Source of the DNA: Candidatus Gastranaerophilales bacterium
GTDB taxonomy: Bacteria; Cyanobacteriota; Vampirovibrionia; Gastranaerophilales; Gastranaerophilaceae
Direction: 5' to 3'
DNA length: 64,000 nt
NCBI GenBank assembly: GCA_944325075.1
Contig: CALUYU010000001.1
Span: 1 to 64,000, forward strand
This document shows positions 4,123 to 63,642 of the stretch, piece by piece. Below the pieces are notes generated by a model. The model saw only the letters and a list, made by a program, of their open reading frames with translations, was not told the DNA's origin and ran no database searches. Numbering within the stretch: the first letter of the stretch is position 1; each line of letters starts with the position of its first letter. A program made the position numbers and the translations under genes.

Positions 4123-5172
4123 GTGGAAACAACAAACAAAAAGAAAGTTTTGCTAATTAAATTATCCTCGCTGGGAGATGTAATTTTTAATATTCCGTTA
4201 GCAAATGCTTTAAAAAGCAATGGCTATGAAGTGACCTGGATTGTGTCAGAAAAAGGTTACGATGTAATAAAAGACAACCCTTGTGTTGATAATGTGATTT
4301 TAGCCCCATTTGTGAAATGGAAAAAGGAAAAGTCATTTATAAAAAAATATAAAGAATTTTTTGATATAAAAAAGAAGATAAAGCAATACAAATTTGACAT
4401 AGCTATAGACACTCAGGGATTGTTAAAAAGTTTTGGTTTTATGTTTAACACCGGAATAAAAAGAAGAGTAGTAGGCACCAATGCAAGAGAATTTTCACTT
4501 CTGGGGGGAAATGAATTTGTAAAATTTCCCAAGAAACATGACTGGAACACCCCGATTATAAAAAAATACCTGAAATATGCAGAACATTTAGGTATTAATA
4601 CAGAAAAAATTCAGGTAACACTTCCAAAATCATCTGAGGAAGCAATAGAACATATAGATACCTTACTTAGTGAAGTTGATAAAACAAAACCGCTGGTTGT
4701 TATATGTCCGGCAACGACCTGGGACAATAAATTTTGGGATAAAGATAACTGGAAAAAACTTGTAGAAAAAATAGAGGATAAATATAGTATTGTATTTACC
4801 GGAACTAAAAATGATATTGATTATATTGAATATATCAACAACGGGAAACACCTGAATCTTGCGGGTAAAACTAATTTAAAAGAGTTAATAGAGCTTTTCA
4901 GAAGAACCGATTTAGTGTTATCACTTGACAGCGGCAGCACCCATCTTGCATGGGCGACGCAAATACCTAAAATAGTCTCAATATTTTGCTGCACGCCACC
5001 AACATTATACGGCCCGATTGGAGAAAAATACATATCTGTAAGCGGGAAACTTTCATGCCAGCCTTGCCATAATAGAAAATGTCCTAAGAGCGACGAAAAT
5101 TACAACGCCTGCACAAAATATCCGGATGTAGAAGAAGTAATTAATGCTATTGATGAATTAGAAAAAAGATAA
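4123..5172 (+). CDS. Glycosyltransferase family 9 (heptosyltransferase-like)
   Basis: This 349-residue GT-B protein belongs to the ADP-heptose:LPS heptosyltransferase family, which adds heptose or similar sugars to the lipopolysaccharide core at the inner membrane face. Family features are the N-terminal LLIKLSSLGDVIFNIPLAN, the middle VICPATTWDNKFW and the C-terminal donor-site DLVLSLDSGSTHLAWA. A cysteine-rich tail (SCQPCHNRKCPKS) is typical of many GT9 proteins. The start is GTG at 4123 after GAGGGAGAGACG. It opens the surface-glycan region and converges on another GT9 gene. The actual donor and acceptor are unknown. Confidence 0.88.
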   Translation: METTNKKKVLLIKLSSLGDVIFNIPLANALKSNGYEVTWIVSEKGYDVIKDNPCVDNVILAPFVKWKKEKSFIKKYKEFFDIKKKIKQYKFDIAIDTQGLLKSFGFMFNTGIKRRVVGTNAREFSLLGGNEFVKFPKKHDWNTPIIKKYLKYAEHLGINTEKIQVTLPKSSEEAIEHIDTLLSEVDKTKPLVVICPATTWDNKFWDKDNWKKLVEKIEDKYSIVFTGTKNDIDYIEYINNGKHLNLAGKTNLKELIELFRRTDLVLSLDSGSTHLAWATQIPKIVSIFCCTPPTLYGPIGEKYISVSGKLSCQPCHNRKCPKSDENYNACTKYPDVEEVINAIDELEKR

Positions 5173-5174
5173 AA

Positions 5175-6185
5175 TCATTTTTTAACTTGTAAAATATCTT
5201 TTATAGCAGCAATAACTTCCCCGTCGGTTATTGCTTCCATACATTTTGAATCCATTCCTTTGCATAATTCTTTTTTGCCGGACTCTAAAAGACATGGCGA
5301 ACACGGGAAGTTTTTGGTTATAACATGACATTTTGAACTTCTAGGTTTCCATCTTACAAGAGAAGTTGGCCCGTTCAGGAGGATTGACGGAATATCTAAA
5401 GCCGCAGCCATATGAATTATACCGGAATCTATCCCGATAACCAAATCCATATTTTTAACAAACGACATTGTTTCAGATATTGAAAATTTACCACATAAAT
5501 TTACAGGCGGAATTTTCATCTCATCAGAAAAAGTTTCGTTAATTTTATTATAAAATTCACAATCTTTTTCCCCGCCCGCATAATAAACCTGACAGTTACA
5601 TTCATTTACCAGAAAAGTAATAACTTTTTTCCAATAATCATCAATCCAATTCTTTTGCGGAAAACGGCTAAACGCTTGAATTAAAATATTTTTTGAGGCT
5701 TTTAGATTTATAAATTTCTTCACATTATCATCATTTTTTTGATTTAACCAAAGCTCGGTTTTGTCACTTTCAACCTGAAAGTTCGATATTCTAAGCAAAT
5801 CCAAATAACAATCAATTTCATGTTTATCATTTTTATAAGGTGATTTTAAAGTTAGGAATTTATTTCTGCGGACACCAAACCCGATCCGCTTTTTAACCCC
5901 GGCCAGGAAAGCCGTCAGAGAAAAGAAACTATCGTTTTTCAAAAAATAAACTGTATCATAATTTTTGAACAAAGATATATAAGATAAAATATTTTTGTAT
6001 TTGCCGTTTACAAAATGAACATTGTTTATATATGGACAAAATTCCATAACCCCATATGCAATTTTGTCAACAAGAATATCAATTTGTGCAGAAGGCAGCG
6101 ACTTTCTGAGCTCCCGGTAAAATGCACTTGCAAAAATAGTGTCACCAATAGTTCCGTATCTTATAACCAATATTTTATCCATCAT
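5175..6185 (-). CDS. Glycosyltransferase family 9 (heptosyltransferase-like)
   Basis: A 336-residue GT9 protein transcribed against its neighbours, ending 2 bases from the gene at 4123. It begins ILVIRYGTIGDTIFASAF, has IQAFSRFPQKNW in the middle, and DLVIGIDSGIIHMAAALDIP near residue 250 at the expected donor site. The C-terminus carries the cysteine cluster CSPCLLESGKKELCKG. Probably a second core-sugar transferase; it is clearly diverged from the first and is not a recent duplicate. A short AT-rich gap (6186-6315) separates it from the divergent gene at 6316 and should contain both promoters. Confidence 0.87.
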   Translation of the reverse strand: MMDKILVIRYGTIGDTIFASAFYRELRKSLPSAQIDILVDKIAYGVMEFCPYINNVHFVNGKYKNILSYISLFKNYDTVYFLKNDSFFSLTAFLAGVKKRIGFGVRRNKFLTLKSPYKNDKHEIDCYLDLLRISNFQVESDKTELWLNQKNDDNVKKFINLKASKNILIQAFSRFPQKNWIDDYWKKVITFLVNECNCQVYYAGGEKDCEFYNKINETFSDEMKIPPVNLCGKFSISETMSFVKNMDLVIGIDSGIIHMAAALDIPSILLNGPTSLVRWKPRSSKCHVITKNFPCSPCLLESGKKELCKGMDSKCMEAITDGEVIAAIKDILQVKK

Positions 6186-6315
6186 GTAATAAATTATATC
6201 ATCTATTATGCATATAAACTATAATTGTAAATTTTTGTATTAAAAATAATAAAATCCCGATTTTTGTAAAGTTTATAGTATAATAAAAATAAATTTTGCA
6301 GAGGATATAAAGAAA

Positions 6316-8217
6316 ATGGATAGAATAAATATTTGTCTATATTGCGATAACAATAATATAAAACAGGCAGGAGTCTTGATTGCATCAATTTTGGATAACG
6401 CAAAGTCAGATGATAATTTAAATCTTTATATTCTAAATAAAAATTTAACAGAAGAAAATCAAAAAGAGCTGCAAACGCTTAATTTCATTAAAAATTCTCT
6501 GATTAAGTTTATTCAGCTTAACGGACAAAACCATAGCGGAGATGAAAATTTTTACTGCATAAATCTTGCAAGTATTCTGCCTGAAATTGACAAAGTAATA
6601 TATCTTAACAGTAATTTAGTTGTAAATACAAGCCTCAGCAAACTTTTTAACATTGATTTAGGAAGTTTTGTCATTGCCGGAGTGAGCGATTTAACAAAAA
6701 ATAAAAAAAGAAAGAACGAATCCTCCTACATAAATACAGACATGCTTCTTATGGATTTGTCAAAAATCAGGTTTCAAAATATTGAAAGAAGTTTTACTGA
6801 TTATATAAATAAAAACAAAACTCAGAAAATAAATGAACAGCAAATTATAAACGATGTTTTGCAAGGCAAAATTAAACTTCTAAACCCAAAATGGAATCTG
6901 CAATCACAAGACTTTACTACACGATCACTATATACAAAATATCCATGGATAATTAATTATTCGGGAAAAGAAAAACCATGGCAAATTGGGAATTACAACT
7001 ACTACAACGAATACTATTATAAATATCTGAATCTTACACCTTGGGCGTTAAATTCCAAAGAAGTAAAAGCGATATTAATAAAAAGTAAATTAATCTCTCT
7101 TGTAAGATATTTTGTATCAAATCCGTTTTTTATGTTCAGACCTGACTTTTATAAAGCATTAAATGAAACATATTTTACACCGGAACCTGAAATTTATCCT
7201 GATACATTTTTAGTTTGGGAACCTTGTTCAAAAAGTCACTCCGAAGTAGTCCCCGGATTTGTAAAATATCTTTTAGATTTAGGTTACAGCGTATCAGTTC
7301 TGGTTACACCTGAAAGACTAAAAGAAGGTCTTTTTTCAAGATTTCAAGACAATAGAATTTTTCTGAATAACTTAACCCAAAAACAAATAAAACATTTTTT
7401 CAAAACACATATGCTGTCGGATGCAAAAGGAATACTTGTAACAACAGTAGGGAAAATTAATAATTCACTTGACTATTCTGATGCGCATAACTATTTCCGG
7501 CTGAAAGAAGGTCAAAAAGCATTGTTTGTAGAACATGAAGTATGCCATTCGGTCGACAACGGAACATTTGATGAAAAACTTATTACTTTAAGAAAACTTG
7601 ACTATAAAGGAGTAAATTCAGTTGTTGTTAATCCGCATTACTTTGGAGATATAAAAATTACACCTAAAAATCGTGATATAACAAATTTTGTAACAGTCGG
7701 AGCAATCAGAGCCGGCAAAAAAAATACCGGTGTAATAATTAATGCTGTAAAAAAACTTCACGAACATAATATCAGAAACTTTAAAGTAACGGTAATAGGC
7801 AAAGGAACATTAGACGGAATTCCGCACGAGATAAAAAAATATTTCGATATAAAAGGACGGCTGTCCTTTAAAGAAATGTACAACGAAATAGAAAAAGCCG
7901 ACTTCTTTCTTACGGCGTATGAAAAAGATAAACCTGCGCATATCAGATATATAACTTCCGGTACAAGCGGGAACTTTCAGCTTGTATATGGATTTGGAAT
8001 TCCTTGTATTATTGTTGAAAAATTTGGCCCGATTAATTGTTTCGATAATACAAACAGCATACTTTACAAAGATGATGAAGATTATGCAGCTGCAATGAAA
8101 ATTGCAATAGAAATGGATGAAATTTCTTATAGCCAAATGCAAAATAATCTGTTATCATATTCTAAAAAGTTATATCATGACTCATTAAGAAATTTAAAGG
8201 AATTAATTAATGAATAG
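6316..8217 (+). CDS. Two-domain glycosyltransferase: GT8-like plus GT-B
   Basis: A 633-residue fusion. Residues 1 to about 270 resemble family 8 transferases (VLIASILDNAK, then KVIYLNSNLVV). At the place where family 8 has its metal-binding DxD, this protein has NSN, so the N-terminal half may have lost catalysis. Residues from about 295 look like a GT-B enzyme: FLVWEPCSKSHSEVVPGFVK, a Rossmann segment FVTVGAIRAGKKNTGVI, VTVIGKGTLDG, and a donor-site region ending YGFGIPCIIVEKFGPINC. It overlaps the next gene by 8 bases, so the two are co-translated. The sugar used is unknown. Confidence 0.75.
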   Translation: MDRINICLYCDNNNIKQAGVLIASILDNAKSDDNLNLYILNKNLTEENQKELQTLNFIKNSLIKFIQLNGQNHSGDENFYCINLASILPEIDKVIYLNSNLVVNTSLSKLFNIDLGSFVIAGVSDLTKNKKRKNESSYINTDMLLMDLSKIRFQNIERSFTDYINKNKTQKINEQQIINDVLQGKIKLLNPKWNLQSQDFTTRSLYTKYPWIINYSGKEKPWQIGNYNYYNEYYYKYLNLTPWALNSKEVKAILIKSKLISLVRYFVSNPFFMFRPDFYKALNETYFTPEPEIYPDTFLVWEPCSKSHSEVVPGFVKYLLDLGYSVSVLVTPERLKEGLFSRFQDNRIFLNNLTQKQIKHFFKTHMLSDAKGILVTTVGKINNSLDYSDAHNYFRLKEGQKALFVEHEVCHSVDNGTFDEKLITLRKLDYKGVNSVVVNPHYFGDIKITPKNRDITNFVTVGAIRAGKKNTGVIINAVKKLHEHNIRNFKVTVIGKGTLDGIPHEIKKYFDIKGRLSFKEMYNEIEKADFFLTAYEKDKPAHIRYITSGTSGNFQLVYGFGIPCIIVEKFGPINCFDNTNSILYKDDEDYAAAMKIAIEMDEISYSQMQNNLLSYSKKLYHDSLRNLKELINE

Positions 8218-9100
8218 AATTCCTGTAGTATACACGTTTGATAAAAGAATTATTTTGGGGGCAGCTGTTGCTATCCAAAGTATGATAGATTGCGCAAATT
8301 CAGATACTGCTTATGATATTTTTATTCTGCATTCTGATTTGTCTGACAAAGAAATTAATTCTTTTACCAAGTTTACTTCCAACACCAGACACACAATAGA
8401 ATTTATGTATATAGATCCGGCACGTTTTAAAAACGCACCCAAGAGTAAAGGAAGCTGGACTGAAATCGTTTACTATCGGTTGATAACTCCGGAAATATTT
8501 CCTCAATATGACAAAATAATATATGTTGATACAGATGTTTTATTCAAAAATGATTTGTGGAATGCTTACAGCATTGATATTTCAGACTATGAATGCGCAG
8601 CTGTGCCGGTGGAAGTTAACGGGGAAAATATGATATGTCATAATTACTTCCCTGAAAATACAAATAAATATATTTATATTTCAAGCTTTTTAATATTTAA
8701 TTTAAAACGCATGAGAGAAGAAAAAACAGTAGAAAAATTTGAGCGTGTGATAAAAGAAGTGAACAAAAGATTAAAATTTTTCGATCTTGATACATTAAAT
8801 ATTGCGTGCGAAAAATTTTATCCTTTGCCATTTTCTTACGGAGTATTTCAAAGTGTATTTTATAATGACGACATTACAAAAGCAGATGAGTATAAATTTT
8901 TAAAAGGAGTCTACAGTTTAGATGAGCTTGAAACTGCCAAAAAAGATGTTATATTTGTTCATTACGCGGGAGATCTCGGGAAACCGTGGAGGATGAAACA
9001 CCCTTATGCAGATTATAAGCAATACATGGACAAAATTCCAAAAGAATTGAAAAAATATACTTTCAGAGATTTAAGAAAAAAATTCTTCAGCAAGAGGTAG
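8210..9100 (+). CDS. Glycosyltransferase family 8
   Basis: A 296-residue GT-A protein of the LgtC/GspA family, which transfers glucose or galactose onto LPS or other acceptors with Mn2+. The nucleotide-binding DxD is intact in KIIYVDTDVLFKNDLW (about 100-115), unlike the related domain in the preceding gene. The second metal ligand region is visible as VIFVHYAGDLGKPWR near the C-terminus. The positively charged tail (RDLRKKFFSKR) could bind the membrane. Its start codon overlaps the end of the gene at 6316, and it ends 3 bases before the next GT gene, so they form an operon. Confidence 0.9.
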   Translation: MNRIPVVYTFDKRIILGAAVAIQSMIDCANSDTAYDIFILHSDLSDKEINSFTKFTSNTRHTIEFMYIDPARFKNAPKSKGSWTEIVYYRLITPEIFPQYDKIIYVDTDVLFKNDLWNAYSIDISDYECAAVPVEVNGENMICHNYFPENTNKYIYISSFLIFNLKRMREEKTVEKFERVIKEVNKRLKFFDLDTLNIACEKFYPLPFSYGVFQSVFYNDDITKADEYKFLKGVYSLDELETAKKDVIFVHYAGDLGKPWRMKHPYADYKQYMDKIPKELKKYTFRDLRKKFFSKR

Positions 9101-9103
9101 TAA

Positions 9104-9913
9104 ATGAAAAAAATTTCTATAATAACTCTGACATACAACCAATTAGAAACAGCAACAAAACCATATATTCAATCTCTATACAAATATACAAATAAAGAAG
9201 ATTTTGATTTAATAATTGTTGATAACAACTCAACGGACGGAACTGTCGAGTATCTGCAAAATTTAGAAAAAGAATACAATAATATTCACGTAATTTATAA
9301 TAACGAAAACTCAGGATATTCTAAGGGGAACAACAAAGGCCTTAAATACCTTGATTCCAGAGAAGGGGGGGGGGGCGAATACATCGGACTTTTTAATAAC
9401 GACATCCTCTTTACACCTGATTGGCTTGATTTATCTTTAGCAGTATTTGAAAAAGATAATAAAATCGGACTTGCCTCTCCGCGTATTCAAAAAAAATGCC
9501 GGTTTAATTCAGAAAATTATATTAAACATTACCCGAAATTTTTGGAAAAATATAAAAAACTTGGGGATTTTTCAATAAATGTGACCACATATTTTTGCTG
9601 CGCGATTATGCCAAAAGAAGTTTTTGAAAAAGTCGGGTATTTAGATGAAAATTATTCTCCTGCTTTTTATGAAGACGATGATTACGCTCTAAGAACTTTT
9701 TATGAAGGATACAAAGTCGGGTATATAAATACTGCATTTATATACCATAATCATAGTACTTCAACTAAACATATGCCGGAAAAAGAAGCTTTAATGGAAA
9801 GAAATAAAAAGTACTTTTTCAACAAACATCCGCTTGGAGAATATATATGGCAGCATAAGCGTTCCAATTTAATAAATGATATGAAAAAATATCTGGATGA
9901 AAGTTTATTATAG
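9104..9913 (+). CDS. Glycosyltransferase family 2 with in-frame G11 tract
   Basis: A 269-residue GT2 protein resembling rhamnosyltransferase-type enzymes. It starts ISIITLTYNQLETA, has the nucleotide-binding IIVDNNSTDGTVEYL (about 37-51), NSGYSKGNNKGLKYL, the NND variant of the DxD motif in GLFNNDILF, and FYEDDDYALRTF as likely catalytic-base region. A run of 11 G residues at 9365-9375 encodes EGGGG just before the NND strand. Loss or gain of one G would truncate the protein, so the gene may be phase variable. It is co-transcribed with the flanking GT genes. Confidence 0.9.
   Translation: MKKISIITLTYNQLETATKPYIQSLYKYTNKEDFDLIIVDNNSTDGTVEYLQNLEKEYNNIHVIYNNENSGYSKGNNKGLKYLDSREGGGGEYIGLFNNDILFTPDWLDLSLAVFEKDNKIGLASPRIQKKCRFNSENYIKHYPKFLEKYKKLGDFSINVTTYFCCAIMPKEVFEKVGYLDENYSPAFYEDDDYALRTFYEGYKVGYINTAFIYHNHSTSTKHMPEKEALMERNKKYFFNKHPLGEYIWQHKRSNLINDMKKYLDESLL
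9365..9375 (+). repeat. Homopolymeric G11 tract inside a GT2 gene
   Basis: Eleven consecutive G residues in a strongly AT-rich neighbourhood. In the assembled length the reading frame continues through to the normal GT2 C-terminus. Long G runs inside glycosyltransferase genes are a known substrate for slipped-strand on/off switching. Confidence 0.9.
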
Positions 9914-9948
9914 TGTTATACAAAATTAATTTGAAAGGGTTTTAAATA

Positions 9949-10923
9949 ATGATATACGATTGTTTTCATTTTTTTAATGAAATAGATATGGCCGAAATCC
10001 GATTTAATATTTTAAATGATGTAGTTGATAAATTTGTCGTGGTTGAAGCAAATAAAACCCACACAGGCATTGAAAAGCCATTTATATTTGAGAAAGAATT
10101 TTCTCGATTTGAAAAGTTTAAAGATAAAATAATTTATATAAAAGTAACAGATTTTCCTAATCTGGATGAGGCAGACACAGATAACTTCGGCAATAAATGG
10201 CTGTATGAAAATTTTCACAGAGACTCCATTATGCGCGGACTAAAAGATTGTAAGGACGATGACATAATAATTATTTCCGATTGCGATGAAATCATCAAGC
10301 CCGAAATAATAAAAAAATATAAAAAGGGGATCGTAATTCCACAACTATTAACGTTCTATTACTACCTGAATATGTTCAGCCTTAACTGCCCTTACTCCTC
10401 AGGTGCGAAAATCTGCCGTTATTCAGATCTTCTAAACCCAAAACAAACATTAAAACCAAAAGAATTTTATCAATACTCTAAAAGCGGTCTTCCGACTTAT
10501 CTGAGATTTTGTAAAGGAAAAAGAATAAAAAATGCAGGATGGCACTTTGGCTACATTGGCGGAGTTGAAAAAATTATAGAGAAAAAACTTGCCATGCCCG
10601 AACAACAATACAATACTTCTGACAATTACCAAAAACAACATATTGAAGAATGTATCAAAAACGGAAAAGACATATTTGGAAGAGAATCTTTTACATATGC
10701 AAATGCAATTATTGATAAAAATTTCCCGGAATATATTGTCAAAAATCAGGAAAAATATTCAAAATATATTAACAACAACAATTGTCAAAATCTCCAATTT
10801 TTGCTCTTTAAAAGTTATCTTAAAAAGTTTATAAAAACATTCTACTCGGTAGATAAACAAATTATTAACGGAATTTCCAAAACACAAATCAAAATTCTTG
10901 GAATAAAATTTGTCAACAATTAG
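9949..10923 (+). CDS. Glycosyltransferase family 17-like protein
   Basis: A 324-residue protein that resembles family 17 (beta-1,4-N-acetylglucosaminyltransferase III type) enzymes found in bacterial surface-glycan loci. Characteristic features are the start IYDCFHFFNEIDMAEIR, FVVVEANKTHTG, the acidic DDDIIIISDCDEIIKP (about 103-118, probable metal site), and the AGWHFGYIGGVEKI segment near 195. The C-terminal 60 residues are Lys/Asn-rich and less conserved. It starts at ATG after AAAGGG with 35 bases to the previous gene. Substrate not predictable. Confidence 0.8.
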   Translation: MIYDCFHFFNEIDMAEIRFNILNDVVDKFVVVEANKTHTGIEKPFIFEKEFSRFEKFKDKIIYIKVTDFPNLDEADTDNFGNKWLYENFHRDSIMRGLKDCKDDDIIIISDCDEIIKPEIIKKYKKGIVIPQLLTFYYYLNMFSLNCPYSSGAKICRYSDLLNPKQTLKPKEFYQYSKSGLPTYLRFCKGKRIKNAGWHFGYIGGVEKIIEKKLAMPEQQYNTSDNYQKQHIEECIKNGKDIFGRESFTYANAIIDKNFPEYIVKNQEKYSKYINNNNCQNLQFLLFKSYLKKFIKTFYSVDKQIINGISKTQIKILGIKFVNN

Positions 10924-11009
10924 TTTTTTAATATTGCTTTATTGAAAAAAATAAGATTTATGGTACAATTGTGACGGATGTATAAGTGCATTTTTTACGG
11001 AGATAATTC

Positions 11010-12089
11010 GTGCCAAAAGTATCAATAATTGTGCCCATATATAATGTAGAAAAGTATCTTAAAGAATGTCTGGATTCGCTAACAAATCAAACATTAAAAG
11101 ATATAGAAATATTATGCATAGATGACGGATCAACTGATTCATCAGGCCAAATCTGCGACGAATATGCAAAAAATGATGCAAGGATTAAAGTTATACACAA
11201 ACAAAACTCCGGCTATGGCAACAGTATAAACTTAGGGATAGAAAAAGCAGAAGGGAAATATATCGGCATATTGGAATCCGATGACTATGCCAATAGAAAA
11301 ATGTATGAAGACCTGTGGAATACTGCAGAAAAATTTCAGGCCGATAATGTAAGATGCAGCTGGTATGAATGTTTTCCTGAAAAAAATGTCTACATTAATG
11401 TCGGAACTATTTCGCCTAAAATCGCAAACAAAGTAATTACCTTCAGGGATTACCATAAAATATTAAAAAATAAAACCATGATTTGGGGAGGAATATTAAA
11501 AAAAGATTTCTTAATTAACAATAATATTAAATGCCTCGAAACTCCCGGAGCAAGTTATCAGGATACATCTTTTAATTTTAAAATATTAACTCTTGCACAA
11601 AGGCTGGTTCTTGTAGACAAACCTTACGTTTATTACAGAAAAGATAACATAAATTCTTCTGTTAAAAATAAGGGAAAAGTCTATTTTATCTGCGACGAAT
11701 ACTCCGAAATAACTAAATTCCTAAATGAACACCCGGACATTAAAAAAGAAATTAATTACAGAAAATTAATTAATGAATACAATAATTATGTATGGAATTT
11801 ACTCAGAATATCTGAGGAGTATCGTGAAGAATTTATAGTAAAATTTGCTGAAATTTTTAAACAGTATTACGATAATGGAGAATTAGACGAAAAATTCTAT
11901 AATAAAATCAGCAAGGATGAGGTGGAAACTCTTTTAAATAATAAAAATGAATACCTGAATATTATTAACAAAAAAATCAAAAAGAAATTAGCAAGAGAAA
12001 AACGGAAAAATATGTTCTCATTAAAAACAAGCCGTACAGGAATAAGCCTGATATTATTCGGGAAACAAGTTATTAATATAAGCAAATAA
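11010..12089 (+). CDS. Glycosyltransferase family 2
   Basis: A 359-residue GT2 enzyme of the EpsJ/WcaA style. The N-terminus reads VSIIVPIYNVEKYLKECLDS, followed by the donor-binding LCIDDGSTDSSGQICDEYA and the metal-binding GILESDDYA (about 86-94). A Lys-rich C-terminal segment of about 120 residues follows the catalytic domain. The start is GTG, placed after ACGGAGATAATTC. A separate promoter is possible, because a TGGTACAAT sequence lies about 40 bases upstream. It is the last gene of the glycosylation region and converges on the AlkD-like gene 5 bases away. Confidence 0.9.
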   Translation: MPKVSIIVPIYNVEKYLKECLDSLTNQTLKDIEILCIDDGSTDSSGQICDEYAKNDARIKVIHKQNSGYGNSINLGIEKAEGKYIGILESDDYANRKMYEDLWNTAEKFQADNVRCSWYECFPEKNVYINVGTISPKIANKVITFRDYHKILKNKTMIWGGILKKDFLINNNIKCLETPGASYQDTSFNFKILTLAQRLVLVDKPYVYYRKDNINSSVKNKGKVYFICDEYSEITKFLNEHPDIKKEINYRKLINEYNNYVWNLLRISEEYREEFIVKFAEIFKQYYDNGELDEKFYNKISKDEVETLLNNKNEYLNIINKKIKKKLAREKRKNMFSLKTSRTGISLILFGKQVINISK

Positions 12090-62708: not shown

Positions 62709-63545
62709 TTATTTACACTTATGTTTACCACTCCAGCTAAGATCATCGCACTTAAGATAGTCCATATTCTCGTTATAAATTACCCAGGCCGTACAACCGT
62801 AACCGTTATAGTTTTTTGCTGTATTGGCCAAGCAATAATTATCAAATGAATATTTTGTATCATCTGTTTGCCCCATAGGCAGTATTTTGTTTTTATATAT
62901 GTAAAAATAAAATATATCACGGCCAACAATATTTGGACGATTGAGCCCATTAAGATCTACAGAAAAATTTCCGCAAATTTCATTTTTATTGCAATTTATA
63001 TTATCAATCCAGCCACCGGAAAAAATTGCTCCATCATTTAAAATTAACTTTGGCTCGCGCATTGTAGAAATACTATTACTACCTAATTGAGAAACTGCAT
63101 AAGGCTTACATTGATTTTCATAATCCAGACATCTTTTTAAGGTTTTTAAGTAAGACTCAAAAGTACTCCAAAACAAGTTCATACTCTTGACTGTTTCCTC
63201 AGAATTATTTATTTCTCCGGTATCAGGATCAACAACATGTGAGGAATTTGAAATCCCCCAGTTATCAATAGTACCAAGGTCATTTTGAGCTTGTAAATAT
63301 GCCTGATTAACTATACTATAAACCTTTTTTAGTCGTGTAACAGTTTCTTTTGCCTGATAATTATTTATTAAAGTCGGTAATGTCATCGCGGCAACAACTC
63401 CGATTATGCCTAGGGTTATAAGGACCTCAGCGAGAGTAAACGCGACCTTGCGAGGCGAGGGGGAGGATGGTAAAAAAACTTCCGCCAGAGTAAATGCAAT
63501 TCTACGAGGCGATAAATAGTTCTTGTTGTTGGGTTGAAAACCCAA
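62709..63545 (-). CDS. Type IV prepilin-like/pseudopilin protein with duplicated N-terminus
   Basis: A 278-residue prepilin. The prepilin peptidase site and hydrophobic helix are in KVAFTLAEVLITLGIIGV VAAMTLPTL (Glu at +5 in FTLAE). The rest is a globular C-domain with Cys pairs (CLDYENQC, CNKNEIC, CDDLSWSGKHKC). Immediately before the real N-terminus there is a second copy of RRIAFTLAEV, encoded by a 36-base repeat 54 bases away (26 of 36 identical). The only start codon in reach is TTG 63545, inside a dispersed-repeat palindrome with no ribosome binding site, so the 5' end may be rearranged. Confidence 0.75.
   Translation of the reverse strand: MGFQPNNKNYLSPRRIAFTLAEVFLPSSPSPRKVAFTLAEVLITLGIIGVVAAMTLPTLINNYQAKETVTRLKKVYSIVNQAYLQAQNDLGTIDNWGISNSSHVVDPDTGEINNSEETVKSMNLFWSTFESYLKTLKRCLDYENQCKPYAVSQLGSNSISTMREPKLILNDGAIFSGGWIDNINCNKNEICGNFSVDLNGLNRPNIVGRDIFYFYIYKNKILPMGQTDDTKYSFDNYCLANTAKNYNGYGCTAWVIYNENMDYLKCDDLSWSGKHKCK
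63423..63512. repeat. Imperfect 36-bp tandem repeat coding for prepilin N-terminus
   Basis: Copies 63423-63458 and 63477-63512 lie 54 bases (18 codons) apart, in the same frame, each coding for a prepilin signature (SPR, then AFTLAEV). 26 of 36 bases match. The copy nearest the body is the functional one. Confidence 0.75.
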
Positions 63546-63642
63546 CCTACGTTGATTCCCGTCTCATCCCGCCGGCGGAGAATTATAATGCAGTGCCCCT
63601 GGCACCACTTTTCTTTTTGCCTGCTATCAAAAAGAAAAAGTG
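63529..63642. repeat. Dispersed palindromic repeat, right edge
   Basis: TTGGGTT-GAA-AACCCAA (63529-63545) is followed by CCTACG, GTGCCCCTGGCAC and the stem CACTTTT...AAAAGTG (63606-63642). The order hairpin, CCTAC, pyrimidine-rich palindrome is the same as at 28716-29076 and 61-340. It interrupts the region just upstream of the prepilin gene. Confidence 0.65.

Follow-up and report, generated by a model that had tools for sequence, protein, structure and literature searches.

Long G tracts are known from glycosyltransferase genes of Campylobacter, and in Neisseria the opa family and pilC have repeats in the part of the gene that encodes the signal peptide. Typical contingency genes include those for glycosyltransferases and for phage receptor-binding proteins. 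Phage examples of such genes are cited in a 2025 review, which also describes the apparent restriction of multi-locus phase-variable genomes to pathogens as a major open question (PMC11868660). In Neisseria meningitidis, 277 candidate SSR loci have been reported, 115 of which were confirmed as variable by deep sequencing (PMC5084427), and about 11 opa genes are mentioned for Neisseria in PMC3745409. At the pil1 locus of Streptococcus gallolyticus, GCAGA repeats in a leader peptide act through a transcription terminator (PMC3894217).

The genome considered here (G000; Candidatus Gastranaerophilales, 2.26 Mb in 107 contigs, with Candidatus Gastranaerophilales MAGs as its closest relatives) resembles each of these systems in part. 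It shares with N. meningitidis long repeats in or before surface genes, a frameshift on/off logic and a large number of loci per genome, but the meningococcal repeats concern many different genes, whereas most of the approximately 133 tracts of G000, an uncultured member of the Gastranaerophilales, belong to leaders of a single expanded family of prepilin-like genes. As in opa and pilC, the genes of a multigene surface family carry the repeat near their 5' end and are ON or OFF independently of one another; G000 differs in having a prepilin (class III) signal where Neisseria has a Sec signal, a mononucleotide G repeat, about ten times more copies, and a long leader between tract and signal. 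In pil1, as in a subgroup of G000 loci (F2b, described below), pilin genes are preceded by a leader-peptide ORF with a repeat that shifts the site at which the ribosome stops, but pil1 depends on a transcription terminator, whereas the F2b leaders overlap the prepilin start by an ATGA, which points to translational coupling. The resemblance to the Campylobacter glycosyltransferases lies in a long G tract within the gene and predicted truncation on slippage, and the difference in the presence, in G000, of a single young tract, ON and known from one assembly, in a genome that possesses MutS.

The tracts of G000 probably reflect large-scale slipped-strand phase variation, mainly of prepilin-like surface proteins and, to a minor extent, of a GT2 glycosyltransferase, prophage tail fibres and a radical-SAM gene. 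Slipped-strand phase variation is a mechanism of a known kind, but the gene family, lineage, leader architecture and scale appear to be undescribed in the open-access literature searched. Searches of that literature yielded no paper dealing with phase variation in the lineage, in keeping with the first-pass annotation of the glycosyltransferase tract, which had known of no description in this group.

A G tract in a glycosyltransferase gene

The window, a 64 kb (64,000-nucleotide) stretch of G000, contains only one G/C run of at least 7, a G11 homopolymer at 9365..9375 (+ strand). The second-longest G run in the window has six bases, and by a first-order estimate about 0.003 G or C runs of length 11 would be expected in 64 kb. 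An ORF (9104..9913, + strand) encoding a GT2 glycosyltransferase of 269 residues (profile match to PF00535, Glycos_transf_2, 3.3e-26) contains the tract in frame, reads through it and is, thus, ON in the assembly. The tract encodes the GGGG (residues 88–91) of an EGGGGE segment (residues 87–92), directly after which the sequence YIGLFNND aligns with the DxD metal-site strand of the chondroitin synthase 2z87 (YIGQLDSD). The NND codons of this DxD-like site (9395..9403, + strand; residues 98–100) are out of frame after a one-base change in the tract: removal of one base gives a product of 111 residues and addition of one base a product of 97 residues, both without the metal site and without the EDDDY motif. 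The first-pass annotation had described eleven G inside a glycosyltransferase gene, placed just before the metal-site strand, with truncation of the enzyme on a one-base change, and its description proved accurate on each of these points. The GT-A type profile match is accompanied by DxD-like and catalytic acidic motifs, and the tract has the make-up of an SSR contingency locus, as a beyond-chance repeat inside an ORF, in which a change of one unit shifts the frame. An AlphaFold2 model of the protein, based on three sequences, was set aside (mean pLDDT 39.6).

The gene belongs to a cluster of seven glycosyltransferase genes around the tract (4123..12089). The other members, identified by Pfam scan, are two GT9 genes (4123–5172, + strand; 5175–6185, - strand), two GT8 genes (6316–8217 and 8210–9100, both + strand), a GT17 gene (9949–10923, + strand) and a second GT2 gene (11010–12089, + strand). 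These neighbours suggest that the GT2 product may be a surface glycosyltransferase. A one-base slip in the tract would lead to loss of the enzyme and so to a change in a glycan.

At the position of the G tract, the nearest GT2 orthologue (G009/L036, 91% amino-acid identity) has GAAGGGTGC, and another (G008/L037, 67%) has no G run. N98, N99 and D100 are invariant across the three orthologues, in which the EDDDY motif is also conserved. As the two nearest orthologues lack the tract, it must be young rather than a conserved switch of this enzyme, and its selective value is unproven. It may have arisen as a neutral accident, by the growth through slippage of a short G run in a variable loop, tolerated in frame and with no role in switching. 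This is a serious possibility, although its chances are judged to be somewhat below even. It is consistent with the GGGTGC or absent G run of the orthologues, with the differences in loop length and sequence between them, with the in-frame state of the tract, and with the tolerance of G000 for long G runs, some of which are intergenic. It fits less well with the nature of the other genes concerned, as the long coding tracts outside the prepilin families lie, in addition to this GT2 gene, in prophage tail-fibre genes and a radical-SAM gene; the first two of these three are classic contingency classes, and two of the ORFs are OFF. Moreover, slippage is to be expected in a G run of 11 bases, useful or not.

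In the radical-SAM case, a 459-codon radical-SAM/B12-binding-like ORF has a G13 close to its start (L154, position 524, - strand); the ORF is OFF and has a possible internal start downstream. The tail-fibre tracts are found in prophage genes at positions 1477 and 69 of L160 (- strand) and in the end of a tail-fibre-like gene at 2193 of L101 (- strand), one of this set being OFF; an IMG/VR search revealed no relatives of the tail-fibre protein. Since tail fibres and glycosyltransferases are typical contingency genes, a switching role of the GT2 tract is supported, although not proven, and its prior is raised by the fact that this tract is one of about 133, most of them in prepilin-like leaders. 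On/off switching of GT2 by its tract is, thus, plausible, and the G11 would then be a young tract of the same kind as the prepilin tracts that arose outside the prepilin family. The main finding nevertheless lies outside the window, in the leaders of the prepilin-like genes rather than in GT2.

Prepilin-like genes and their leaders

About 133 G tracts of at least 8 were counted in G000 by pattern, against first-order expectations for the whole genome of about 11 at length 8 and about 0.1 at length 11. The run lengths are bimodal, with 7–9 rare and 10–14 common. A set of 100 stretches around tracts (L067–L166), amounting to about one fifth of the genome, was taken from G000. Two dispersed families, F1 (n = 65; ATGGAAAAGTCAAGTATAGCACGGCATAC, then usually G13) and F2 (n = 48; ATGCTAAAACTCAATCATAGTGCGGATTTCCCTGATA, then usually G10), account for 113 of the 133 tracts. 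Their tracts are typically located nine to twelve codons past a start codon with a ribosome-binding site; a -10/-35-like pair and a ribosome-binding site are found upstream of most, the promoter match being weak evidence in an AT-rich genome. An alternative F1 start in another frame was rejected on reading the sequence: frame +1 has a TAG before the tract, leaving the ATG as the only good start. IMG/VR pattern searches for length variants of F1 and F2 yielded no match. Loss of mismatch repair was also considered as a cause of the tracts and rejected, given that MutS is present in G000 and that MutS_I is found in 12 of the 13 genomes of the genus, tract-rich and tract-poor alike. To our knowledge, Campylobacter and Helicobacter are unlike G000 in this respect, which counts against the phase-variation reading.

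Each locus was read with its tract as it stands, shortened by one base and lengthened by one base. At 52 loci of G000, exactly one of the three tract-length frames joins the leader, with no stop codon, to a type IV prepilin signal (AFTLAEVLITLG); the open frame has 220–451 codons and contains FTLAEVLI, and the other two frames stop early, the pattern of an SSR contingency locus. The sequence AFTLAEVLITLGIIGVVAAMTLP, present in the 52 loci, is the type IV prepilin cleavage/methylation signal, and this N-terminal motif is followed by a hydrophobic helix, as in PF07963 (N_methyl). PF07963 matches occur genome-wide, with single proteins near or above the cut-off. Over five genomes, 137 tracts have a prepilin motif within 1 kb, and in 95 of these the frame of the motif is open all the way from the tract, whereas the frequency of stops in the other two frames would predict only about five.

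The genes would, thus, be laid out as a promoter, a ribosome-binding site, an ATG, nine to twelve codons, a G tract (usually 10–14), a leader and AFTLAEVLITLG. Replication slippage by one base would take the ribosome from a complete prepilin (ON) to a short peptide terminated soon past the tract (OFF), or back, and such switching could be reversible within a population, with the products presumably processed and displayed at the cell surface. Genes with such tracts before the prepilin signal could be annotated with the wrong start.

The leader between the tract and the prepilin signal usually has 60–250 codons in the source species, which is unusually long for prepilins, and as few as about 10 in relatives, the shortest being MHISGFEH-GGG-VKSSHSKGFTLAEVLITLG (L212). 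Some leaders (e.g. L068, L128) are mosaics of dispersed repeats, including VGVKPQPT, CHPELVSGS and a repeated AFTLAEVF..SPRRV, and are stop-free in the ON frame only. Codon-position diversity revealed no excess of third-position change, and hence no purifying selection, in the F1 leader, the protein sequence of which is, therefore, not visibly constrained, a point against the switching reading; the same measure weakly indicates purifying selection in the F2 leader.

F2b, a subgroup of F2, mostly has no fusion to the prepilin. Its ON frame is, instead, a separate leader of about 70–90 codons. At several of the listed loci, the end of this leader overlaps, as ATGA, a prepilin start preceded by a ribosome-binding site; at most of the others listed, it ends within about 20 bases of the prepilin start. 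When the tract has its OFF length, the leader is cut short at about 17 codons. The overlap suggests that leader and prepilin may be translationally coupled, in which case slippage in the leader tract would act on the prepilin through this coupling.

The tracts may, alternatively, be mere passengers of a dispersed 5' cassette (promoter, ribosome-binding site, ATG and tract) serving the exchange of prepilin sequences by recombination or gene conversion, to which slippage would be secondary. The 5' segments of F1 and F2 are, indeed, highly similar over dozens of loci, and the window contains a prepilin-like open frame (62709..63563, - strand; AFTLAEVLITLGIIGVVAAMTLP), its only one, that has no evident ribosome-binding site, leader or G tract and could be a silent copy. 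However, the leaders of G005, G007 and G008 differ from these in sequence and yet have the G tract at the same place ahead of the prepilin signal, so what is shared is the tract and not a cassette, and this explanation is considered very unlikely. The frame at 62709–63563, which may belong to the tract-carrying family as a silent copy, adjoins a deaminase-like gene.

Tract states and length differences

In the assembly, nine of the 52 G000 loci are ON and 43 are OFF. Over the 91 prepilin loci of G000, G005, G007, G008 and G009, 19 are ON and 72 OFF, the latter comprising 62 with one G too many, off(-1), and 10 in the third frame. This distribution is skewed (62/19/10), as free slippage would give a flatter split. 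The excess of tracts with one G too many could result from biased slippage together with selection for a mostly OFF state, or from a default length rescued by transcriptional or ribosomal slippage; the constancy of this default might reflect an evolved, mostly OFF setting.

If rescue were the rule, tracts fixed at one G too many would be read by RNA-polymerase slippage or ribosomal frameshifting, giving a constant low level of prepilin with no switch in the DNA. The 62 of 91 loci in off(-1), drawn from several leader families, are consistent with this possibility, as are the open frames that remain stop-free though OFF and the near-identical copies that often keep their length (in two of three near-identical locus pairs of G000 and G009, the tract length is unchanged). 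A fixed length is, however, difficult to reconcile with 19 loci that are ON and 10 in the third frame, and with near-identical copies of differing length, such as G12 (ON) and G13 (OFF). One locus, 97.7% identical between G000 and G009 (L113/L172), even differs in state between the two species, being OFF in G000 and ON in G009. Rescue in place of switching is, thus, unlikely. Prepilin leaders, in other words, include close copies that differ in tract length with a change of state, as slipped-strand switching would predict.

Contigs C86 and C42 of G000 (L161, L130) overlap, the former with its end and the latter with its start, and match exactly except in the tract, which is G14 in one and a 12-base GGGAGGGGGGGG in the other; this difference could be a sequencing error at the G run. 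Many contig ends lie near F1 tracts, indicating that the assembly breaks there, and the tracts may partly explain why G000 was assembled in so many contigs. It might be objected that the tracts themselves are artefacts of assembly or sequencing, such as the poly-G calls of two-colour chemistry, given the many contig ends located no more than 250 bp from a tract and the ragged appearance of a few end tracts (L124, L153). Such an origin is hardly credible, because most of the tracts are internal, with 10–14 G, conserved flanks and a fixed distance from the ATG, and because they recur at matching places in independently assembled genomes.

Tracts in related genomes

G005, G007, G008 and G009 share the architecture of G000, with a G tract after the start codon, leaders of differing sequence and, here also, one frame that reaches the prepilin signal. 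Some prepilin loci are nearly identical in G000 and G009 (L113/L172, L086/L258) while the GT2 proteins of these two genomes differ by 9%, which suggests that these loci may have been exchanged recently.

Tract count and N_methyl (PF07963) count are correlated over 13 genomes of the genus (rho 0.88), and tract number and prepilin number over 145 genomes of the family (Spearman 0.68, from first-look candidate counts and with phylogeny ignored). At least 30 tracts are found in 40 of the 145 family genomes, again as first-look candidate counts; among genomes of the class that lie outside the family, low tract counts are the rule, with some exceptions. We lean towards a family-wide phasome, in which a genome would encode as many as about 100 phase-variable prepilin-like proteins, or more, all having a G tract in the leader and most being OFF, such that individual cells would display their own combinations of surface pilins. 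A second form would switch a coupled leader ORF, and tracts would occasionally occur in glycosyltransferase or prophage tail-fibre genes.

The Gastranaerophilales are a non-photosynthetic cyanobacterial lineage of the gut for which we know of no role in disease. The presence of more than 100 candidate switches in one genome of this lineage, in a pattern that recurs across the family, bears on the question of why multi-locus phase-variable genomes seem restricted to pathogens (PMC11868660). If confirmed, these loci would provide a natural test of whether commensals diversify their surface as a defence against phages, competitors or immunity.

The highest count seen was that of G215, with 176 tracts of at least 9 G in a genome of 2.2 Mb. 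Four genomes of the family (G082, G054, G088 and G049) have many G tracts and few prepilins, and probably carry another tract-bearing gene family.
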